This document shows, one piece after another, positions 1,278-54,764 of a stretch of DNA of 64,000 nucleotides. The stretch spans positions 1 to 64,000 of the forward strand of contig JABMPH010000274.1 of assembly GCA_013203805.1 (NCBI GenBank), in the 5' to 3' direction. The notes beneath the pieces are model-generated. The model was not told where the DNA came from. It was given only the letters and a program-made list of their open reading frames with translations, and ran no database searches. A program made the translations under genes and the position numbers. The DNA is from Bacteroidota bacterium (GTDB lineage: Bacteria > Bacteroidota > Bacteroidia > Bacteroidales > F082). The stretch's first letter is position 1. Every line of letters begins with the position of its first letter.

Positions 1278-4200
1278 ATGAGTGATACTATTAATGTAAC
1301 ATTAAACGGGAAAATAACTCAGGCATACAGTGGTGAAACGATTCTTGATGTTGCCAAAAAAAATAATATAGAAATACCAACCCTCTGTCACGATCCACGA
1401 CTTAAGCCATTTACTTCATGCTATGTATGTGTTGTGGAAGTTCAGGGGTTACGAGGATTGCAACCTTCATGTTCCACCAAGGTAACCGAAGGAATGAATA
1501 TTGAAACTAATAATGATAAGGTTAGAAAAGGACGAAAAACAGCCCTCGACCTCATGCTCAGTAATCATTACGCCGACTGTACTGCCCCTTGCATACAAAC
1601 CTGTCCTGCTGGAGTTGATATTCAGGGATATATATCTCACATCGACAAAGGACAATATCGTGATGCTGTTGCTTTGATTAAAGAAACAAACCCGCTTCCT
1701 GCTATTTGTGGAAGAATTTGTGTTCGTCCTTGTGAAGTAGGATGCAGAAGAAATCAACTAGATGAAGGTGCTCCTGTTGGTATCGATTATATGAAAAGAT
1801 TTGCCTCGGATTGGGATCTGGAATCTGATGACAAATATGTTCCTGAAATTCAACCGTCAACAGGTAAAAAAATTGCAATTATCGGGGCAGGTCCTGGTGG
1901 ATTATCTGCAGCTTTCTTTCTTCAGAAATTAGGTCATCAGGCCGATATTTTTGAAGCAGCTCCTGCAGCAGGTGGATGGCTCAGATATGGAATACCAGAG
2001 TATCGATTACCTAATGATATTCTTCAAAAAGAAGTTGATAATATTACAGAAATTGGTGCTAATATATTCTATAACAAGAAATTTGGAGATAATCTTAAGT
2101 ACAAGGATATTAAAAATGATTATGATGCTACAATTCTTACCATTGGTTCACAAAAAGGAACTCTAATTGGTTGTGAAGGTGACGATGCTGAAAATGTATT
2201 TTCAGGCATTGATTTCCTTAAGGATATGGAAGTATCAGGAAAACCTTTCGACTTTACGGGCAAAAAAGTAGCTGTTGTTGGTGGTGGTAATACTGCCATG
2301 GACTGCTGCAGAACTTCAATTAGATGTGGATCAACTGAAGTTTATGTTATTTACCGACGTACAGAAAAAGAAATGCCGGCAAACCCAATTGAGATTCACG
2401 AATCTAAAATTGAGGGTGTTCAATATAAACTACTAACAAACCCAATTCGTGTAAACAAAGATGAAGAGGGTAAAGTTAAATCCGTAACATGTTTAGAAAT
2501 GGAGTTGGGTGAGCCTGATGCATCAGGAAGAAGACGGCCTGTTCCAATAGCAGGTTCAGAATTTGATTTAGAAGTAGATTATATTCTCGCAGCAATAGGA
2601 CAAAAGACAATAGTCGACTTTCTTGCAGATATCAATGGTTCAACTGATGAAGGTGAATTAAAAATAAACCGCTGGGGTGATATCGAAGCTAATCCGGATA
2701 CTCTACAAACCGGCATTAATTCTGTTTTTGCTGCCGGAGATGGCGTTACAGGCCCATCTACTGTTATAGCAGCTATTGCTCAGGCAAAAACGGCTGCTTA
2801 TAGTTGTAATCAATTTCTTAATAACCATGAGATCGTTGCTCCAAAGAATGAATTTTTAAGCAAGAAAGATAACTTCAAACTCCAAGACAGTGCCGTTTTC
2901 AAAGGTCAATATCCTGTGCAATTGCGAGAAGAAATGCCTACTCTTGATCCTGATAACAGAATCAATTTTAATGAGGTTGAGCTGGGATACACAAACGAAG
3001 AAGTTGCAAAACACGAAGCTCAACGATGTTTAGAATGTGGTTGTGTTAAAGTTTTTAATTGCGATCTAAAGGACTATTCCACCGAGTATGGTGTTGAGCA
3101 GAATAAATATGCTGGTGATTACAATGAGTACAAAGTTGATTTTCGTCATCCATTTATTGAAATCGACAACAACAAGTGTATCCTTTGTTCCAGATGTATT
3201 AGGATTTGCAAAGAAGTAGTTGGGGCAGACGCCCTTGGGTTAGTGAATAGAGGTTTCCATACCTACGTTGCTCCTAGTATGGCCGACAGACTTCAGGACT
3301 CTACTTGTGAATCGTGTGGCTTATGTATATCAACATGTCCTACAGGTGCCCTTAGTGAAAATGTATTGTTTAAACCCGGTCCAATAAAAACTGATAAAGT
3401 AGTAACAATTTGTAATTACTGTTCGGTTGGTTGTGAAATCGTTCTTAATCATAAGAGTAATTTCGTAATGAAAGTATCGGGAAGTGAGGGCATTGTAAAT
3501 CCAGATGGAAATATTTGCAAATATCCAAAATTTGGCTTTAATTATCTTAATGATAATGCGCGTATTACCAGGCCTTTACTTAAAGTAAAAGGTGTATTTA
3601 AAGAAATCAGCTTTAAAAAAGCATATGATATAATTACCGAGAAGATTACACAGGTTAAACCTGATGACAATGCATTTTTTGCCGGAGCCAGACTCACTAA
3701 TGAGGAAATGTACCTTATCCAGAAACTAGCCAGAGCAGGTGCAAAAACAAACAATGTTACCAGCCTGCATTATATAAATCGTGGTGATGGATATACATTC
3801 AACTCCAGAAGCAATGTTCCATTCAATCAAATTGAAGGTGCAAGTAAAATTTATCTTCTGGGATCAGAAATTAATGAAGATAATGCAGTTGTTGGTTTCA
3901 TGATAAACAATGCCCAATTCAATAATAATATCCCTGTTGAATTAATTACTATCCACGAAAATAGTTCGATGGAACGCAAAGTTGACAATATAATTAAAGT
4001 TAGCTCATATTATCACTTTATCAAGGCTGTTAATTATTACCTGGTTGCTAACAATTTTCACAATGCTATGTTTATTGGTGATAATTGCGAGGCTTACGAA
4101 GAATATCGGACTAATGTAATGCAAGAAAACTTCGGTGAACTTGTTAAGTTAAGTGGTGTTACAACTATGGATACGGTTGTTGAATTTGCCAAATCGTACA

Positions 4201-4976
4201 ATAATGAAATGAACGCAGTTATTGTATTTTCAGAAAAAGAAATATCGGCAAATGCAAGTTACGAGCTTTTCAATTTAAGTATGATTACTGGCAAACTTGG
4301 TAAAACTTCAAACGGACTTATTGCGCTTAAGGAGAAAAACAACTCTCAAGGGTTATTCGATATGGGAATTTGCCCGAAACTTGGTGTAGGGACTCAGCCC
4401 ATTGATGATCCTAAATTGATAAAATTGATGAAGAAAAAATGGAAAGTTGACGAATTACCATCAACCATAAATGAAAGTCAATTTATTAATTTAGAAGAAG
4501 GTAAGCTGAAAAATCTATTTATCTTTGGTGAAGATCCAATGGGAACAGCAAAGAATCCTGTTCGTATGGCAGGATGGATTTCAGTATCAGACTTTGTTAT
4601 GGTTCAAGATTCATTTATGACCAAAACAGCCAAAAGAGCCGATCTTATTCTACCGGCTTCTTTCCCAATTGAATCGGGAGGCAGTTTTACAAATACTCAA
4701 AAAGTGATTCAGGAATTTGAGCCCAAATTCAAATCTAAAGTTGATAGGCTATCATACCAGCAACTTATCGATCTGCTCAAAAAACTGGGTATAAAACAAA
4801 AGATCAATATTGAAGATATAAGAATGGAGGCTATGTCGTTGTTATCAACTGCAAAGGAAAACAAATTGAAATTTGTATATACTAATACTGATAATCAACA
4901 TCGCATTTTCGAATACGGATGTGATTCAATTGACAAATATTTTGAAGAGGCATTTGAAAGTGCATTTGAAGAATAG
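1278..4976 (+). CDS. Large iron-sulfur flavoprotein: 2Fe-2S + GltD-like FAD/NAD(P) module + ferredoxin + NuoG/FDH-like domain
   Basis: The 1232-residue protein has several modules. Residues 1-75 are a NuoG-type 2Fe-2S domain (Cys37, 48, 51, 65). About 97-156 is cysteine-rich, with His97, Cys101/105/109 and a GltD-type cluster at Cys144/148/152/156. About 198-520 is a GltD/NfnB-like FAD/NAD(P) reductase with GAGPGG at 203-208 and GGGNTAMD near 335-342. About 630-700 carries two 4Fe-4S motifs. From about 710 there is a molybdopterin-oxidoreductase Fe4S4 motif (CNYCSVGC...C) and a partial molybdopterin domain. The Sec/Cys that binds Mo or W in formate dehydrogenases is missing: the stretch after TNNV contains no cysteine. 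The C-terminal dinucleotide-binding domain also appears absent. It is therefore more likely a NuoG-like electron carrier than a formate dehydrogenase. With the NuoF partner it may form a soluble NADH/NAD(P)H/ferredoxin transhydrogenase or bifurcating complex (inference). Confidence 0.85.
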   Translation: MSDTINVTLNGKITQAYSGETILDVAKKNNIEIPTLCHDPRLKPFTSCYVCVVEVQGLRGLQPSCSTKVTEGMNIETNNDKVRKGRKTALDLMLSNHYADCTAPCIQTCPAGVDIQGYISHIDKGQYRDAVALIKETNPLPAICGRICVRPCEVGCRRNQLDEGAPVGIDYMKRFASDWDLESDDKYVPEIQPSTGKKIAIIGAGPGGLSAAFFLQKLGHQADIFEAAPAAGGWLRYGIPEYRLPNDILQKEVDNITEIGANIFYNKKFGDNLKYKDIKNDYDATILTIGSQKGTLIGCEGDDAENVFSGIDFLKDMEVSGKPFDFTGKKVAVVGGGNTAMDCCRTSIRCGSTEVYVIYRRTEKEMPANPIEIHESKIEGVQYKLLTNPIRVNKDEEGKVKSVTCLEMELGEPDASGRRRPVPIAGSEFDLEVDYILAAIGQKTIVDFLADINGSTDEGELKINRWGDIEANPDTLQTGINSVFAAGDGVTGPSTVIAAIAQAKTAAYSCNQFLNNHEIVAPKNEFLSKKDNFKLQDSAVFKGQYPVQLREEMPTLDPDNRINFNEVELGYTNEEVAKHEAQRCLECGCVKVFNCDLKDYSTEYGVEQNKYAGDYNEYKVDFRHPFIEIDNNKCILCSRCIRICKEVVGADALGLVNRGFHTYVAPSMADRLQDSTCESCGLCISTCPTGALSENVLFKPGPIKTDKVVTICNYCSVGCEIVLNHKSNFVMKVSGSEGIVNPDGNICKYPKFGFNYLNDNARITRPLLKVKGVFKEISFKKAYDIITEKITQVKPDDNAFFAGARLTNEEMYLIQKLARAGAKTNNVTSLHYINRGDGYTFNSRSNVPFNQIEGASKIYLLGSEINEDNAVVGFMINNAQFNNNIPVELITIHENSSMERKVDNIIKVSSYYHFIKAVNYYLVANNFHNAMFIGDNCEAYEEYRTNVMQENFGELVKLSGVTTMDTVVEFAKSYNNEMNAVIVFSEKEISANASYELFNLSMITGKLGKTSNGLIALKEKNNSQGLFDMGICPKLGVGTQPIDDPKLIKLMKKKWKVDELPSTINESQFINLEEGKLKNLFIFGEDPMGTAKNPVRMAGWISVSDFVMVQDSFMTKTAKRADLILPASFPIESGGSFTNTQKVIQEFEPKFKSKVDRLSYQQLIDLLKKLGIKQKINIEDIRMEAMSLLSTAKENKLKFVYTNTDNQHRIFEYGCDSIDKYFEEAFESAFEE

Positions 4977-39924: not shown

Positions 39925-39958
39925 AAAAGCCGTTTTGAACATTATCAAAACGGCTTTT
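39925..39958. terminator. Terminator between the S46 peptidase gene and the MobB-like gene
   Basis: AAAAGCCGTTTTGA and TCAAAACGGCTTTT form a perfect 14-bp stem with a 6-base loop and T runs on the plus strand. The minus strand is also T-rich after the stem, so it may serve both convergent genes. Confidence 0.92.
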
Positions 39959-39982: not shown

Positions 39983-40558
39983 CTAATTCATATTAAGAGT
40001 ATTTTGCATAACTTTTTTAATCTGCCAGTCACCGGAATTATAATTCACCTGAAAATTAATGGACTCTTGAGAAAAATCTTCTTGTAGTATTATTTTGTTG
40101 GCCTTATCTAAATTTGAAATATATGACTCTTTTGTTTCATCAGCATTTTCACCTACAACCAGTATATGATATCCTGGTTTGTAAGAACTGGCAAAGGATC
40201 CTGATTCACAAACAATCGGGGAGTTATCAGGAATCAACTTTCTAAGTACGTTATAGATAAAAGGTAGGTCATTATCGGTACACCGAACAAAGTAAACTGA
40301 AGAAGCTCCGGCAACTAACATTCGCGAACTGTCCTTTCCTGATCTTGTATCAAGTTCGCGATAAATACTAAATCTGTGATCTTCATAAACAAGCACCTGT
40401 TTATTTTCAGTTATGTGAAAATGAGGTGAGATCTTCAATCCAGTTACTTGGTCCGTCTTTGCCAACTGACTTATTATATGACAGGCTACGGTAGTTTTAC
40501 CGCAATTACGACCAGAGCCAGATATCAGGATTACGTTGTTAAAATTAATTTTCGCCAT
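39983..40558 (-). CDS. MobB-like P-loop NTPase
   Basis: The 191-residue protein has the P-loop SGSGRNCGKTT near residue 15 and a layout like MobB (molybdopterin-guanine-dinucleotide accessory protein): GLKISPHFH, SRMLVAGASSVYF, ESGSFASSYKPG. ATG at 40558 is chosen because an earlier in-frame codon overlaps the upstream gene. MobB proteins bind GTP and help MobA attach nucleotide to molybdopterin. The match is by pattern, not strong identity, and the C-terminal 60 residues are unusual. It is downstream of tauE in the same transcript; a mobA-like gene lies at 54764-55330. Confidence 0.6.
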   Translation of the reverse strand: MAKINFNNVILISGSGRNCGKTTVACHIISQLAKTDQVTGLKISPHFHITENKQVLVYEDHRFSIYRELDTRSGKDSSRMLVAGASSVYFVRCTDNDLPFIYNVLRKLIPDNSPIVCESGSFASSYKPGYHILVVGENADETKESYISNLDKANKIILQEDFSQESINFQVNYNSGDWQIKKVMQNTLNMN

Positions 40559-40563
40559 GTCCA

Positions 40564-41307
40564 CTAAATCCAAAACAATTTAATACTTGCTAATAATAAT
40601 ACAAAAGCAAGTAAATACCTCAACCTAACTAATGAAAACCTGTAGCTGCCACTATAGGCGCCTAGTATGCCGCCAACCAAGGCAACAATTACCCAGGACA
40701 TCAATTGAGGGCTGAAACTTATATCAGTTGTTAATAGTCCAAAAATTCCGGCAGCAGAGTTTAAGAAAATAAAAAGAGCAGAAATTGCTGCTGTTTCTTT
40801 AACATTTGCCCATCCCAACAAAAGCAATATTGGGCTCAATATAATACCACCCCCAATTCCTATCAAACCAGAGAAAAATCCCAATAACGCTCCAATTATA
40901 AGAGCTATAATGAAATTGAATGGTATAATTTGCTGCTGATTTTTATTAGGTGTATAAACCATCCTGGCAACAGCAACAATTAAAAATACTCCGAGTATAT
41001 ACTTAAATATCTGAGGATCGATGAAAATACGAGCGCCAATAAACGCCATTGGTATTGAACCTATTATAAAGGGTAGTAATAATTTTCTCTTAAAATATCC
41101 ACCTTTATAATATGCATAAAACGAAACTCCGGCAACAAAAAGGTTTAATGTTAGTGCTGAGGCTCTCATGAAAATTGTGGAAATACCAAACAAAGCCATC
41201 AAGGCCAGATACCCACTGGCTCCTCCGTGTCCAACAGAAGCATACATGAAAGCCACTATAAATAATGCAAACAAAAACAATATGTTGAGTTCCATAAACA
41301 CAAGCAT
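40564..41307 (-). CDS. TauE/SafE-family (TSUP) membrane transporter
   Basis: The 247-residue protein has eight predicted helices and the two family repeats, ASVGHGGASGYLALMALFG and GLIGIGGGIILSPILLLLG. TSUP proteins move sulfite, sulfonates or other oxyanions. ATG at 41307 is used because it lies 7 bases after GGAG; longer versions would run into the structured leader. The leader (41308-41481) and the MobB-like gene downstream suggest a link to molybdate, tungstate or cofactor metabolism, while cysteate synthase elsewhere in the window would fit sulfite. Confidence 0.85.
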   Translation of the reverse strand: MLVFMELNILFLFALFIVAFMYASVGHGGASGYLALMALFGISTIFMRASALTLNLFVAGVSFYAYYKGGYFKRKLLLPFIIGSIPMAFIGARIFIDPQIFKYILGVFLIVAVARMVYTPNKNQQQIIPFNFIIALIIGALLGFFSGLIGIGGGIILSPILLLLGWANVKETAAISALFIFLNSAAGIFGLLTTDISFSPQLMSWVIVALVGGILGAYSGSYRFSLVRLRYLLAFVLLLASIKLFWI

Positions 41308-41481
41308 TACAAAACTCCGCCTACAATGGAAATGGGTAAAACAATCCCATGGATTGTTAACATACCTCCTTTCCAAGTCATTCTGCAATAGCAGAAATCG
41401 GGAGGATGATTGGTTTCCCTATCATCCCATCGGTACTATTTCCATGTGTAACTACATTTAGGGAAAAGCACTCGGAGTTTT
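41308..41481 (-). promoter_or_regulatory. Structured 5' leader, riboswitch-like (possible Moco/Tuco family)
   Basis: Read on the minus strand, a 9-bp closing stem (AAAACTCCG at 41473-41481 with CGGAGTTTT at 41311-41319) encloses a multibranch structure. ATGGAAAT pairs with ATTTCCAT (41438-41447 with 41323-41333). Three hairpins lie inside: GGATGAT/ATCATCC with loop AGGGAAACCA (41404-41427), TTCTGC/GCAGAA (41381-41396) and AACAATCC/GGATTGTT (41340-41358). CTCC/GGAG (near 41401 and 41366) can close around the second hairpin. The GGAG Shine-Dalgarno of tauE, 7 bases before its ATG, is inside the closing stem, so folding should block translation. Gene content suggests the molybdenum/tungsten cofactor class, but I recall its consensus only roughly. 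Confidence 0.6.
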
Positions 41482-41516
41482 ATTATTTAAAAATAATATG
41501 CTTAATAAAGCAATCG

Positions 41517-41769: not shown

Positions 41770-43599
41770 CTATGAAGAAGTTACAACAACAGGAGTAAGT
41801 TTGTGTCGCTTTTCAATTTCCATATAGAGAATATGCAAGGCTTGTTTACTTGCTTCAAGATCACTCATTATCTTTGATTTTGTATCCTCAAACTTATCCT
41901 TCATCTCATCAAACAAACCTGAATAATAGCTTACACCTTCCTTTAAATTATTTGCAAAAGTTAGCAAATACTTCTCCTGTTTGTTAGTCCTTGATATTTT
42001 GGTTTCTTCAATCTTATTTTTAAGATATTCAATATAGATACTAAGCTCTTTAATAAACATATTTGGGCGATCATTTCTTGTGATGATATTCGACCTGCCA
42101 TAAATATGATCTATCATTTCTTTCAAACTTTTAATTTTTGAAAAATATGCCAAATTTGGACCTGGACAAACTGATACTCCTTCACCTTCTACTTTTGTAT
42201 CAAGTTTATTAATCAACAAAGTTGCTGTGCTTAATCCAACACAAATACATGATTTATCAATTATCTTATCATAACTCTTTTGATGTTCATTGGATGATAA
42301 TCCTTTGGCATCTAATTCTTTTATCTTCAATCGTTGATATCGATGAGATGCAGTACAAATTGGTTTTTCGGTAAATTCAGTGTTTGATACGAGGAATTTT
42401 TTTGGACATAAACTTCCCGGTCTACCCTTTTCAGCTAAAGCCAATTTTTCGATATCTTTAGTATTCCCCCTGAGGCTATTAAAAGGAACTCCCAATGGTG
42501 AAATATTGCTTAAATAAAGATCGTCTTCTGTTGCTTCAGCTAACTCATTTAGAGTATAATCATCCACATTTGTTACTTCGGGAACCAATAAGAAAGGACT
42601 TCCCCAACCTACTGAATCCATTCCATAATGATCCATTAAAAACTGATGTTCTTCCGCAGTTCCAACACCCCCTTGAGCGGTAATTTTAAGTGGCAGAACC
42701 TCAGCTGGTACCGTACGGTTTTTGGCAGCTAAGGCAGCTGCTAAAATTTCATGTATGGAATATGTGAGGTCATTCCTGTTCTGTTTAAACTCAGATAAAA
42801 TTGGTCCCAGCAGAAAACCATCGGTAGCAAAGGCATGACCTCCACAATTAAGACCTGATTCGATTCTATATTCACTAACCCACAATCCTTTTTTAGCAAA
42901 GAATTTACCCTGAATTAATGCTGAACGATAATCGCTAACTTTCAGAATAATTTTCTTTTTAATAAAACCTTCCTCATTTGGGAAGAAATCATTAAAACTT
43001 TCCATATAGCTGTATAATCTTGGGCTCATCCCTGCCGATATTACAACAGACGAGTTTAGATCACTTGTTGCAAAACCTCTAATAGCCGCATGTGCATCAT
43101 TATATTCAATTGGCAACTTCTCACCGTTAGCGTAGTTAGCCTTATCAATTTTGGTCATGATATTAACATCAATACTACCCATTGATAAATTTTCTTTAAG
43201 CCATTTTTTTATTTCAACAACATTAAAGTACTTTTCGGTTAAACTTTCGAATTCCTTTTTAAGTTCAGAGGTATCGGGCAACATACTGAAGTATTCTTTT
43301 ATCTCATGCCTTTTTTCAAGTGTAGCATTTTTGAATTCTTCAAATTTCTTTTCTGCCTGCTCATTGAGCAGGTTTAAATATGACCTTATACGTTTAGCAC
43401 GGAAATCTTCGAATTTTTCTGTAATCTCATGATATGGTACTTCGAATTTTTCACTATACATTTTTCTTAATTTCTCAAGAAGAACATCATCTACTAAGGA
43501 TATAACTGAATCTATACCAAATTGACTCACTTTTAACGGAGTATCAACTGTAAATCCAATTCCCATTACCGGTATATGAAACGAATGCTTTTTATTCAT
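41770..43599 (-). CDS. Conserved protein of unknown function with a TIM-barrel-like core and cysteine-rich region
   Basis: I do not recognise this 609-residue protein by name. The first 120 residues are charged and helical after a start like an FMN-barrel strand (PVMGIGFTVDTPLKV). The middle (about 160-400) has barrel-like motifs (FATSDLNSSVVISAGMSP, NCGGHAFATDGFLLGP, KITAQGGVGTAEEHQFLM) reminiscent of nitronate monooxygenase, PfaD or glutamate-synthase-type flavoenzymes. At about 405-500 several cysteines follow (SLCPKKF, KPICTASH, KSCICVG, VCPGPN) and could hold an iron-sulfur cluster. The C-terminal 100 residues look coiled-coil. There is no signal peptide, so it is cytoplasmic. It is monocistronic. 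Confidence 0.75.
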   Translation of the reverse strand: MNKKHSFHIPVMGIGFTVDTPLKVSQFGIDSVISLVDDVLLEKLRKMYSEKFEVPYHEITEKFEDFRAKRIRSYLNLLNEQAEKKFEEFKNATLEKRHEIKEYFSMLPDTSELKKEFESLTEKYFNVVEIKKWLKENLSMGSIDVNIMTKIDKANYANGEKLPIEYNDAHAAIRGFATSDLNSSVVISAGMSPRLYSYMESFNDFFPNEEGFIKKKIILKVSDYRSALIQGKFFAKKGLWVSEYRIESGLNCGGHAFATDGFLLGPILSEFKQNRNDLTYSIHEILAAALAAKNRTVPAEVLPLKITAQGGVGTAEEHQFLMDHYGMDSVGWGSPFLLVPEVTNVDDYTLNELAEATEDDLYLSNISPLGVPFNSLRGNTKDIEKLALAEKGRPGSLCPKKFLVSNTEFTEKPICTASHRYQRLKIKELDAKGLSSNEHQKSYDKIIDKSCICVGLSTATLLINKLDTKVEGEGVSVCPGPNLAYFSKIKSLKEMIDHIYGRSNIITRNDRPNMFIKELSIYIEYLKNKIEETKISRTNKQEKYLLTFANNLKEGVSYYSGLFDEMKDKFEDTKSKIMSDLEASKQALHILYMEIEKRHKLTPVVVTSS

Positions 43600-53552: not shown

Positions 53553-54764
53553 CTAAGAAGAACTCTGCTTTTCCTTAAAAAATTGTAGCCAGCTATCGGC
53601 CATAGCCAGTGGCAACAGCAACGACCTTACCGGATGTTTGATTATTTCTTTTGATTTGGGTAATAATGAAATCATCTCAGGCAGCGCACTAAAGGCCAGT
53701 CCTATTGATTGATAAAACTTTCCCATACCTACTTTCATTAAAAATAATTTTACTTTGCTATTTCTTAATTCAACACTAATGGCAGAAAAACCAACAACCA
53801 CAAACAACGCTCTTACCATCATTTCAATTCCGGCGTACATACCTTCCAACTGAAATAGCACAACCTCATCTTTATCATTTTTCCAAAACAATGCCGACAG
53901 GGCAACAATCAATATCAACTGAACCCAAAAAATAGGCTTTCGAAGCCTACGTAAGGCAAAACGATATCGGTATCCAATTACAAAAATATAGGCTGTTACA
54001 AATAAATAGCCATACTTCCCATCACTTACATTTAGCAGAAATAGGCCTAAGGGAATTGCAATAATGTGCACAAAAAGCATTGGAATTGATGTATGTTGAT
54101 TGTCCTCTATTTTAAAAAAATCGTTTTTTGGAATGTGGTTTTCTTTGATGCCAACGCCACTGTATTCTTGACTAATTAAAACTGCTTTTCGTCCGGCATA
54201 ATAACCCAAAGTAGCTGCTATTGTGCCCAGTAATGTATAAAACACAAGTAAAACCGTAAGAACCTGAACAGGTTCAGCCTCATCAATTCTTAATTGTTTT
54301 AATCCAAAATTTATGACGTTAATATAAACTTGTATCAAATCGTAACCATAAAAAACAATCATACTGAATATCTTATAAAACAGAGCACTCGATACACTAA
54401 AAATGCCGGCAATCAGATATCCAATAAAATTGCGTCCCAGTATCAAGATAACAAGTTCAATTAGTATTGCCTCTAACATTATTCCCATCATAGGACCCAG
54501 AATTATTGCTGATGGGGATACCGATTTCATAATTGCAGTAATTAGTCCTGCCCTAATAATTAGCCCCCTTTGAGGCCATAGTTGATAATAACCAATAAGT
54601 AATATTGTGCCAAAAAATGCAAGGGTGGATCCTGCCATGGGCAATCTGGCATTATGTAAAAAGCTACCTATTATTATTTCTAAAGATGCCCATAATCCGC
54701 CAACAACAGCAGCTTTAAGCCACAGGTCGCTTTCTTTATTATTATGTGATTTGGCCGATTCCAT
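53553..54764 (-). CDS. Polytopic membrane protein, ECF-transporter-like (S-like plus T-like halves)
   Basis: The 403-residue protein has about ten predicted helices. The N-terminal half (about 10-190: GGLWASLEIIIGSFLHNARLP, KSVSPSAIILGPMMGIMLEA) looks like an ECF transporter substrate-binding subunit. The C-terminal half (about 230-400, with RYRFALRRLRKP and a helical SIGLAFSALPEMISLLPKSKE) resembles a CbiQ-type T subunit. Residues 205-225 are a hydrophilic linker. The assignment is by pattern only. Its ATG overlaps the stop of the mobA-like gene by one base (TAATG), so the two are translationally coupled. No ECF ATPase gene is adjacent. Confidence 0.5.
   Translation of the reverse strand: MESAKSHNNKESDLWLKAAVVGGLWASLEIIIGSFLHNARLPMAGSTLAFFGTILLIGYYQLWPQRGLIIRAGLITAIMKSVSPSAIILGPMMGIMLEAILIELVILILGRNFIGYLIAGIFSVSSALFYKIFSMIVFYGYDLIQVYINVINFGLKQLRIDEAEPVQVLTVLLVFYTLLGTIAATLGYYAGRKAVLISQEYSGVGIKENHIPKNDFFKIEDNQHTSIPMLFVHIIAIPLGLFLLNVSDGKYGYLFVTAYIFVIGYRYRFALRRLRKPIFWVQLILIVALSALFWKNDKDEVVLFQLEGMYAGIEMMVRALFVVVGFSAISVELRNSKVKLFLMKVGMGKFYQSIGLAFSALPEMISLLPKSKEIIKHPVRSLLLPLAMADSWLQFFKEKQSSS

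Follow-up and report, generated by a model that had tools for sequence, protein, structure and literature searches.

The window analysed here is a 64,000-nt stretch of DNA from a Bacteroidota bacterium. Its minus strand carries a leader RNA with a riboswitch aptamer, followed by a two-gene operon:

41350..41489 (−), Moco/Tuco aptamer RF01055, lacking P3 (cmscan; covariation in 21 TSUP-linked leaders)
41433..41471 (−), P2 hairpin (cmscan alignment, covariation)
41403..41428 (−), P4 hairpin with GAAA tetraloop (cmscan alignment, covariation)
41373..41402 (−), P5 with an extended hairpin (cmscan alignment, covariation)
40564..41295 (−), TSUP/TauE-family membrane protein gene, start ATGGAA; proposed molybdate/tungstate importer (PF01925, context)
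39983..40558 (−), MobB-like P-loop protein gene, after a gap of 5 nt (P-loop GSGRNCGKTT; gene pair in relatives)
39925..39958 (−), intrinsic terminator ending the operon (14-pair stem, T run)

The TSUP protein scores 110 bits against PF01925 (cut-off 32.6) and belongs to a clade marked by the N-terminal motif [AS]SVGHGGASGY. Its AF2 model (40564-41307, −; pLDDT 83) is an all-helical membrane fold. The top fold match was BacA/UppP, an undecaprenyl-pyrophosphate phosphatase (Z 11.5, 226 residues, rmsd 4.5), which gives no information on the TSUP substrate. The fold search returned no transporter of known substrate, we found no solved structure related by sequence to the window TSUP, and a search for TSUP in viral contigs found nothing. 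The earlier note had proposed that the riboswitch precedes a TSUP gene and a MobB gene. The arrangement stands, with a P-loop gene in second place, but the MobB label is weak: the window protein scores 18.3 bits against PF03205 (cut-off 26.6), the best copy reaches 25.3, and every MobB-like copy tested falls under the cut-offs of both Pfam PF03205 and NCBIfam TIGR00176. Upstream of the riboswitch lies a gene for a 609-aa protein (41770-43599, −), a neighbour kept in several genomes of the same genus, for which no Pfam or NCBIfam family scored above cut-off.

The leader RNA and its family

When the whole window was compared with Rfam by cmscan, RF01055 (the Moco/Tuco riboswitch) was the sole match at or above the gathering score. 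It lies at 41489-41350 on the minus strand, scores 69.5 bits (gathering score 36; E 1.1e-14), and spans the model at full length (positions 1-135). The suspicion of a Moco-class riboswitch in the earlier note is thus borne out, and the new class that it had also entertained is ruled out by this score. Matches to CRISPR-DR66 and Rev72 were far under cut-off and are attributed to chance. The cmscan alignment shows the CUCCGAG core, the GAAA tetraloop of P4 and the GGAAAGGAG strand of P1 in the window aptamer, and the CUCCGAG/GGAAAGGAG junction core and the tetraloop are conserved in 21 leaders. P2 also contains a receptor-like CCUAA...AUGG, which may contact the P4 loop.

The positions of the P3 stem are deleted in the alignment of the window aptamer to RF01055, and this stem is missing from 21/21 TSUP-linked leaders. 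About a third of the family members described by Regulski et al. 2008 (58/176) are without P3, and these were associated with tungsten-cofactor genes (PMC2408646). Given this correlation and the absence of P3, the window aptamer is predicted to be of the Tuco subtype. We conclude that the leader belongs to the known Moco/Tuco class, as a P3-less, predicted Tuco-type variant. Its ligand would be Moco or Tuco, and control of the downstream genes would respond to the cofactor.

The earlier note had set covariation in homologous leaders beforehand as the point on which its reading turned. Such covariation is present. In an alignment of 21 distinct TSUP-linked aptamers, 91.7% of cells are paired and 23/33 aptamer pairs show two-sided changes, a result approached by 0/500 shuffles and by no slid register. 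P1 is near invariant (two-sided change in 2/4 pairs) and the inner P5 pairs show no two-sided change; because these pairs barely vary, they provide little information alone. Position is conserved as well: among 61 relatives, 12/12 RF01055 matches lie directly upstream of the same TSUP gene, and 10/14 further TSUP loci tested carry the riboswitch before TSUP, which confirms conservation of the leader upstream of tauE orthologues.

A phylum-wide rule linking riboswitch and TSUP was considered and rejected, as other classes have the riboswitch before moaA, ChrA-like and ECF-like genes, with no TSUP. By eye, Moco riboswitches in L015, L019, L025, L030 and L033 precede carboxymuconolactone-decarboxylase-like, ChrA-like (chromate-transporter-like) and moaA genes, the ChrA-like proteins appearing as another oxyanion-transporter family under this control. 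In L027, also by eye, riboswitch and MoaA are followed by a SulP/MOT1-like transporter. Seven loci (L017, L018, L020, L022-L024, L026) show the riboswitch, an ECF-S-like protein and then a T-component-like protein, mostly with a TonB-receptor-like ORF. The window itself encodes a membrane protein (53553-54764, −) homologous (2e-15) to the ABC_cobalt/ECF-S-like protein found behind the Moco riboswitch elsewhere in the phylum. The ABC_cobalt/ECF-S-like module is possibly another Mo/W uptake system.

Competing folds and the expression platform

Downstream of, and partly within, the aptamer lie the elements of a second fold:

41473..41481 (−), strand a, the 5' strand of P1 and of the alternative closing stem (cmscan, fold)
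41365..41374 (−), strand a', GGAAAGGAGG, which holds the P1 3' strand; its partner in the alternative fold is a2
41340..41358 (−), P6 hairpin between a' and a2, AACAAUCC-AUG-GGAUUGUU (MFE fold)
41328..41337 (−), strand a2, matching the 5' arm of the relatives' terminator, degenerate here (ACCCAUUUCC vs CCUCGUUUCC)
41311..41319 (−), strand a2', CGGAGUUUU, the 3' strand of the alternative stem, equal to the 3' arm of the relatives' terminator, CGGGGUUUUUU
41307..41363 (−), 18-codon leader ORF overlapping ATG 41307 (TAATG), kept only in two near-identical genomes

The 9-bp perfect closing stem, the second long-range helix and the three hairpins described in the earlier note all recur in our folding. 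AAAACUCCG (41481-41473) and CGGAGUUUU (41319-41311) of the minus strand form a helix without mismatches, and in the MFE fold of 41489-41305 (−65.4 kcal/mol, z = −5.9, 0/200 shuffles as stable) this stem encloses hairpins P2, P4 and P5 plus one more helix, formed by 41374-41365 and about 41337-41328 around a small hairpin. Hairpins similar to P6 were seen by eye in the leaders of relatives. In the cmscan alignment, aptamer P1 pairs CUCC 41477-41474 with GGAG 41369-41366. Since the closing stem and P1 use the same CUCC, the two are mutually exclusive. The Rfam fold was recovered when the aptamer was folded alone or P1 was forced, and the full leader with P1 forced reached −52.4 kcal/mol. This falls 13 kcal/mol short of the alternative fold, and hence switching must be kinetic. 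The 9-bp closing stem is a competing ligand-free structure and not part of the aptamer.

The same strands have further roles in related leaders. Intrinsic terminators (−9 to −20 kcal/mol, with U tracts) are predicted between aptamer and start in eight leaders from other genera (L004, L007, L008, L009, L011, L093, L099, L104), and three more were recognised by eye (L106, L112, L117). In the nearest genera the terminator arms are CCUCGUUUCC and GGGCGGGG-U6. Terminator arms are complementary to the P1 3' strand (GGAAAGGAGG), with duplex energies of −10 to −16 compared to about −6.7 for P1 itself, and in the nearest genera an arm is also complementary to the P1 5' strand (AACUCCG). In L006, L012 and L109, the P1 3' strand is the Shine-Dalgarno sequence of the TSUP gene. 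Both designs, terminators in some genera and SD-in-P1 in others, predict OFF on ligand binding, and the architecture of the riboswitch-TSUP family as a whole is predicted to be that of an OFF switch.

A terminator search found none in the window's own leader. In the window genus the U tract and the 5' arm of the terminator have been lost, and 5/5 sequences retain a 3' arm complementary to the P1 5' strand; in L010 one A-U pair of this helix has apparently become U-A. By the mechanism that we propose, scarcity of the cofactor would leave the P1 strands to pair downstream, a with a2' and a' with a2, and binding of the cofactor would allow P1 to form, setting a2 and a2' free. In other genera the freed strands would then make the terminator, or P1 would cover the TSUP ribosome site, and import would be shut off by feedback. 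In the window genus, where the terminator arms have decayed and the a/a2' stem is retained, we infer by analogy that the window copy shares the sensing logic of its relatives; its output step may be transcriptional or translational, and may be of either sign.

A GGAG lies 7 nt upstream of ATG 41307, inside the closing stem, just as the earlier note had reported; both sequence and fold confirm it. This arrangement is a counterpoint to an OFF switch, since a/a2' hides the GGAG in the ligand-free state and the sign would be opposite if ATG 41307 were used. It would suit an exporter or overflow valve for molybdate/tungstate that the cofactor turns ON, with the GGAG freed from a/a2' and translation starting at ATG 41307. 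The GGAG-ATG spacing is correct, both elements lie in the window's alternative stem, and exporters exist among TSUP proteins. However, ATG 41307 is restricted to the window genome and a 95%-identical sister, whereas related leaders share the start ATG(GAA/GAU), whose window counterpart is 41295, 12 nt downstream of 41307; on these grounds ribosomes probably bind mainly at a site other than this GGAG. The relatives' terminators and SD-in-P1 designs imply OFF, and an exporter would not substitute for importers in MoaA/MoaC genomes. We regard export as improbable and favor an importer under feedback control. The translational switch envisaged in the earlier note, with the SD hidden in the closing stem, is not upheld: the stem is the ligand-free fold, relatives do not conserve the GGAG/ATG pair as their start, and in related genera these strands serve as arms of intrinsic terminators. 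The leader ORF (41307-41363) is probably without function, and the idea that its peptide (41363-41307) serves in translational coupling was set aside, the ORF being conserved in no more than two near-identical genomes.

TSUP genes and the molybdenum cofactor

We surveyed 80 relatives of the TSUP gene, nearly all from Bacteroidota. By seed search, Moco genes could be recognised no farther than 6 kb from TSUP in 74/80; adding L115, which has the riboswitch, and L160, which has XdhC and a MobA-like gene, gives 76/80 with Moco genes, molybdoenzyme-maturation genes or the riboswitch. Gene order varies. The operon reads TSUP-MobBlike-MoeA-MoaA-MoaC-MOSC/MoaB in L079, L080, L081 and L093, TSUP-MobA-MobBlike-MoeA-MoaA-MoaC-MOSC in L083, L098, L100, L102 and L109, and MoeA-ModE(HTH)-TSUP-MoeB-MoaE-MoaC/MoaB-MoaA in G006, where no riboswitch was found. 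A ModE-type HTH adjoins TSUP in many Bacteroidota clusters, the one in G006 having a ModE domain. As a control, the 61 relatives hold about 120 TauE proteins (counted from a table), 14 of them in the TSUP clade, and among the remaining 106 or so, 0 are on a contig near MoaA. These data rule out a general TauE-Moco link. They also bear on the idea that the riboswitch is real and TSUP a mere regulatory passenger with no function in Mo/W metabolism. Gene neighbours may stay conserved within one lineage, although this consideration is not specific to TSUP; the 76/80 loci are spread across Bacteroidota with rearranged order and with a riboswitch or ModE-type HTH as neighbour, and the other TauE proteins lie away from MoaA. 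We consider a passenger role highly improbable.

Short ModE-type HTH proteins stand beside TSUP, with no riboswitch seen, in L074 (G006), L119, L123, L125 and many loci of Flavobacteriia, where RNA and protein control seem to have been exchanged. At several loci (L073, 181-984; L081, 713-1513; others) MoaA is short, at about 266 aa, with a partial Mob_synth_C match and some copies under cut-off.

We compared the distribution of TSUP with that of two known importers, ModABC and WtpABC, through their ModB/WtpB permeases. In 18 of the 61 relatives, all of which have MoaA, the ModB model finds a permease at about 128-149 bits, and G052 additionally has a true ModB over cut-off. The neighbour of the permease in the window genome is WtpA above the NCBIfam cut-off, and hence these permeases are most likely WtpB. 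Among the 31 MoaA genomes, 11 have TSUP only, 16 a ModB/WtpB-like permease only, 2 both and 2 neither (Fisher p 1e-4, in a test that ignores phylogeny). Both are present in G005 and in the window genome (G000), where the WtpB-like gene sits on a contig of 4.2 kb and the assembly has 5.5% contamination; the two genomes with neither are assemblies 77% and 83% complete. TSUP and ModB/WtpB are exchanged even within genera (g1: G003 and G007 vs G004; g6: G012 vs G026).

A similar pattern was seen in a phylum sample of 197 genomes besides the window's, separate from the 61 relatives. TSUP occurs in 24/197; of these, 24/24 have MoaC and 0/24 ModB/WtpB, compared to a ModB/WtpB match in 64/93 other MoaC genomes. 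Fisher p values are 1.4e-10 overall and 2e-6 when family f43, which is heavily sampled, is left out, again ignoring shared ancestry. With the sole exception of G250, every TSUP match scoring over about 245 bits has MoaC on its contig no more than about 4.2 kb away; among the weaker matches, only that of G228 is near MoaC. Operon context, conservation and complementarity with Mod/Wtp all strengthen the Mo/W role that the earlier note had suggested for TSUP.

As to the metal, the absent P3 points to a tungsten cofactor, by the correlation of Regulski et al. The window genome has an AOR-family protein near MoaA, several PF00384 proteins, one of NarG size, and a WtpABC set on the 4.2-kb contig. 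AOR is missing in half of the TSUP relatives, and L160 has XdhC and a MobA-like gene, making molybdate likely to be a substrate as well. Elsewhere in the window, 1278-4976 (+) encodes a 1232-aa, formate-dehydrogenase-like protein with Fer2, Pyr_redox and Molybdopterin (PF00384) domains, alongside a NuoF-like ORF (2-1249); from its domains, it is a possible Mo/W enzyme client.

Characterised TSUP proteins act on sulfur anions, not molybdate, a point against a molybdate/tungstate importer. Given these sulfur-related functions (PMC5840216; Weinitschke 2007, as cited in PMC3597751), TSUP might instead move a sulfur anion (sulfite, thiosulfate or a sulfide donor) of Mo/W enzymes or cofactor synthesis, hence the co-regulation, and a polysulfide/thiosulfate-reductase-like molybdoenzyme or rhodanese does adjoin TSUP in L079, L081, L084, L104 and L105. 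Yet TSUP is constant while its molybdoenzyme partners differ (AOR, NarG-size and XdhC contexts), and sulfur transport leaves the absence of Mod/Wtp from 24/24 phylum TSUP genomes unexplained. We judge it unlikely. Family membership, covariation, the mutually exclusive folds, operon context and Mod/Wtp complementarity are computed results. The P3-less Moco/Tuco riboswitch probably controls an operon for a TSUP molybdate and/or tungstate importer and a MobB-like protein, where ligand, substrate, transport and its direction, and regulatory sign are those that comparative sequence analysis suggests. It also seems reasonably probable that the [AS]SVGHGGASGY clade comprises new single-component secondary-carrier molybdate/tungstate importers, which have repeatedly displaced ModABC/WtpABC across Bacteroidota, with Tuco-type riboswitches as their regulators in one group and, possibly, ModE-type repressors in others.

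Among bacteria that use Mo, one survey counted 278 without a known Mo/W transporter and proposed further uptake systems (PMC6147048). The TSUP clade is a concrete Bacteroidota candidate for this missing uptake, with its riboswitch offering a ready-made readout of the regulated metabolite. If the proposal is true, some database entries now annotated 'sulfite exporter TauE' would shift to metal-oxyanion uptake. The TSUP-linked leaders also form a natural P3-less set for asking whether P3 decides between Moco and Tuco.

Comparison with known systems

Searches of the open-licence literature for TSUP, TauE or DUF81 with molybdate, Moco or riboswitch returned no report linking TSUP to Mo/W transport. 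What is new here is the conserved coupling of a riboswitch to a distinct TSUP clade with a pattern of Mod/Wtp exclusion. The leader resembles the RF01055 RNAs of Regulski et al. in its whole-model score, CUCCGAG core, GAAA tetraloop, GGAAAGGAG strand and loss of P3. Their targets were molybdate transporters, Moco-synthesis and Moco-enzyme genes (PMC2408646), whereas that of the window leader is a TSUP gene, and the phylum list in the abstract of that paper does not name Bacteroidota (PMC2408646). Compared to RF01055 elsewhere, the window genus differs in its terminator arm, which has decayed and yet retains pairing with the P1 5' strand.

The MobB-like gene is like MobB (PF03205) in its P-loop start and, in relatives, in its position beside MobA or MoeA; with the window protein under the profile cut-offs, agreement there is in operon context only. 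The TSUP clade shares with PF01925 (TSUP/TauE-SafE) the profile score, the all-helical membrane fold and a C-terminal GIGGG motif. It differs from other TSUP/TauE proteins by the [AS]SVGHGGASGY motif, Moco operons and complementarity with Mod/Wtp, and requires no link to sulfur metabolism. ModABC and WtpABC have the same proposed substrate and metabolic place, and are found instead of TSUP in related genomes. Unlike these systems, TSUP is a single membrane protein, with no ATPase and no binding protein.
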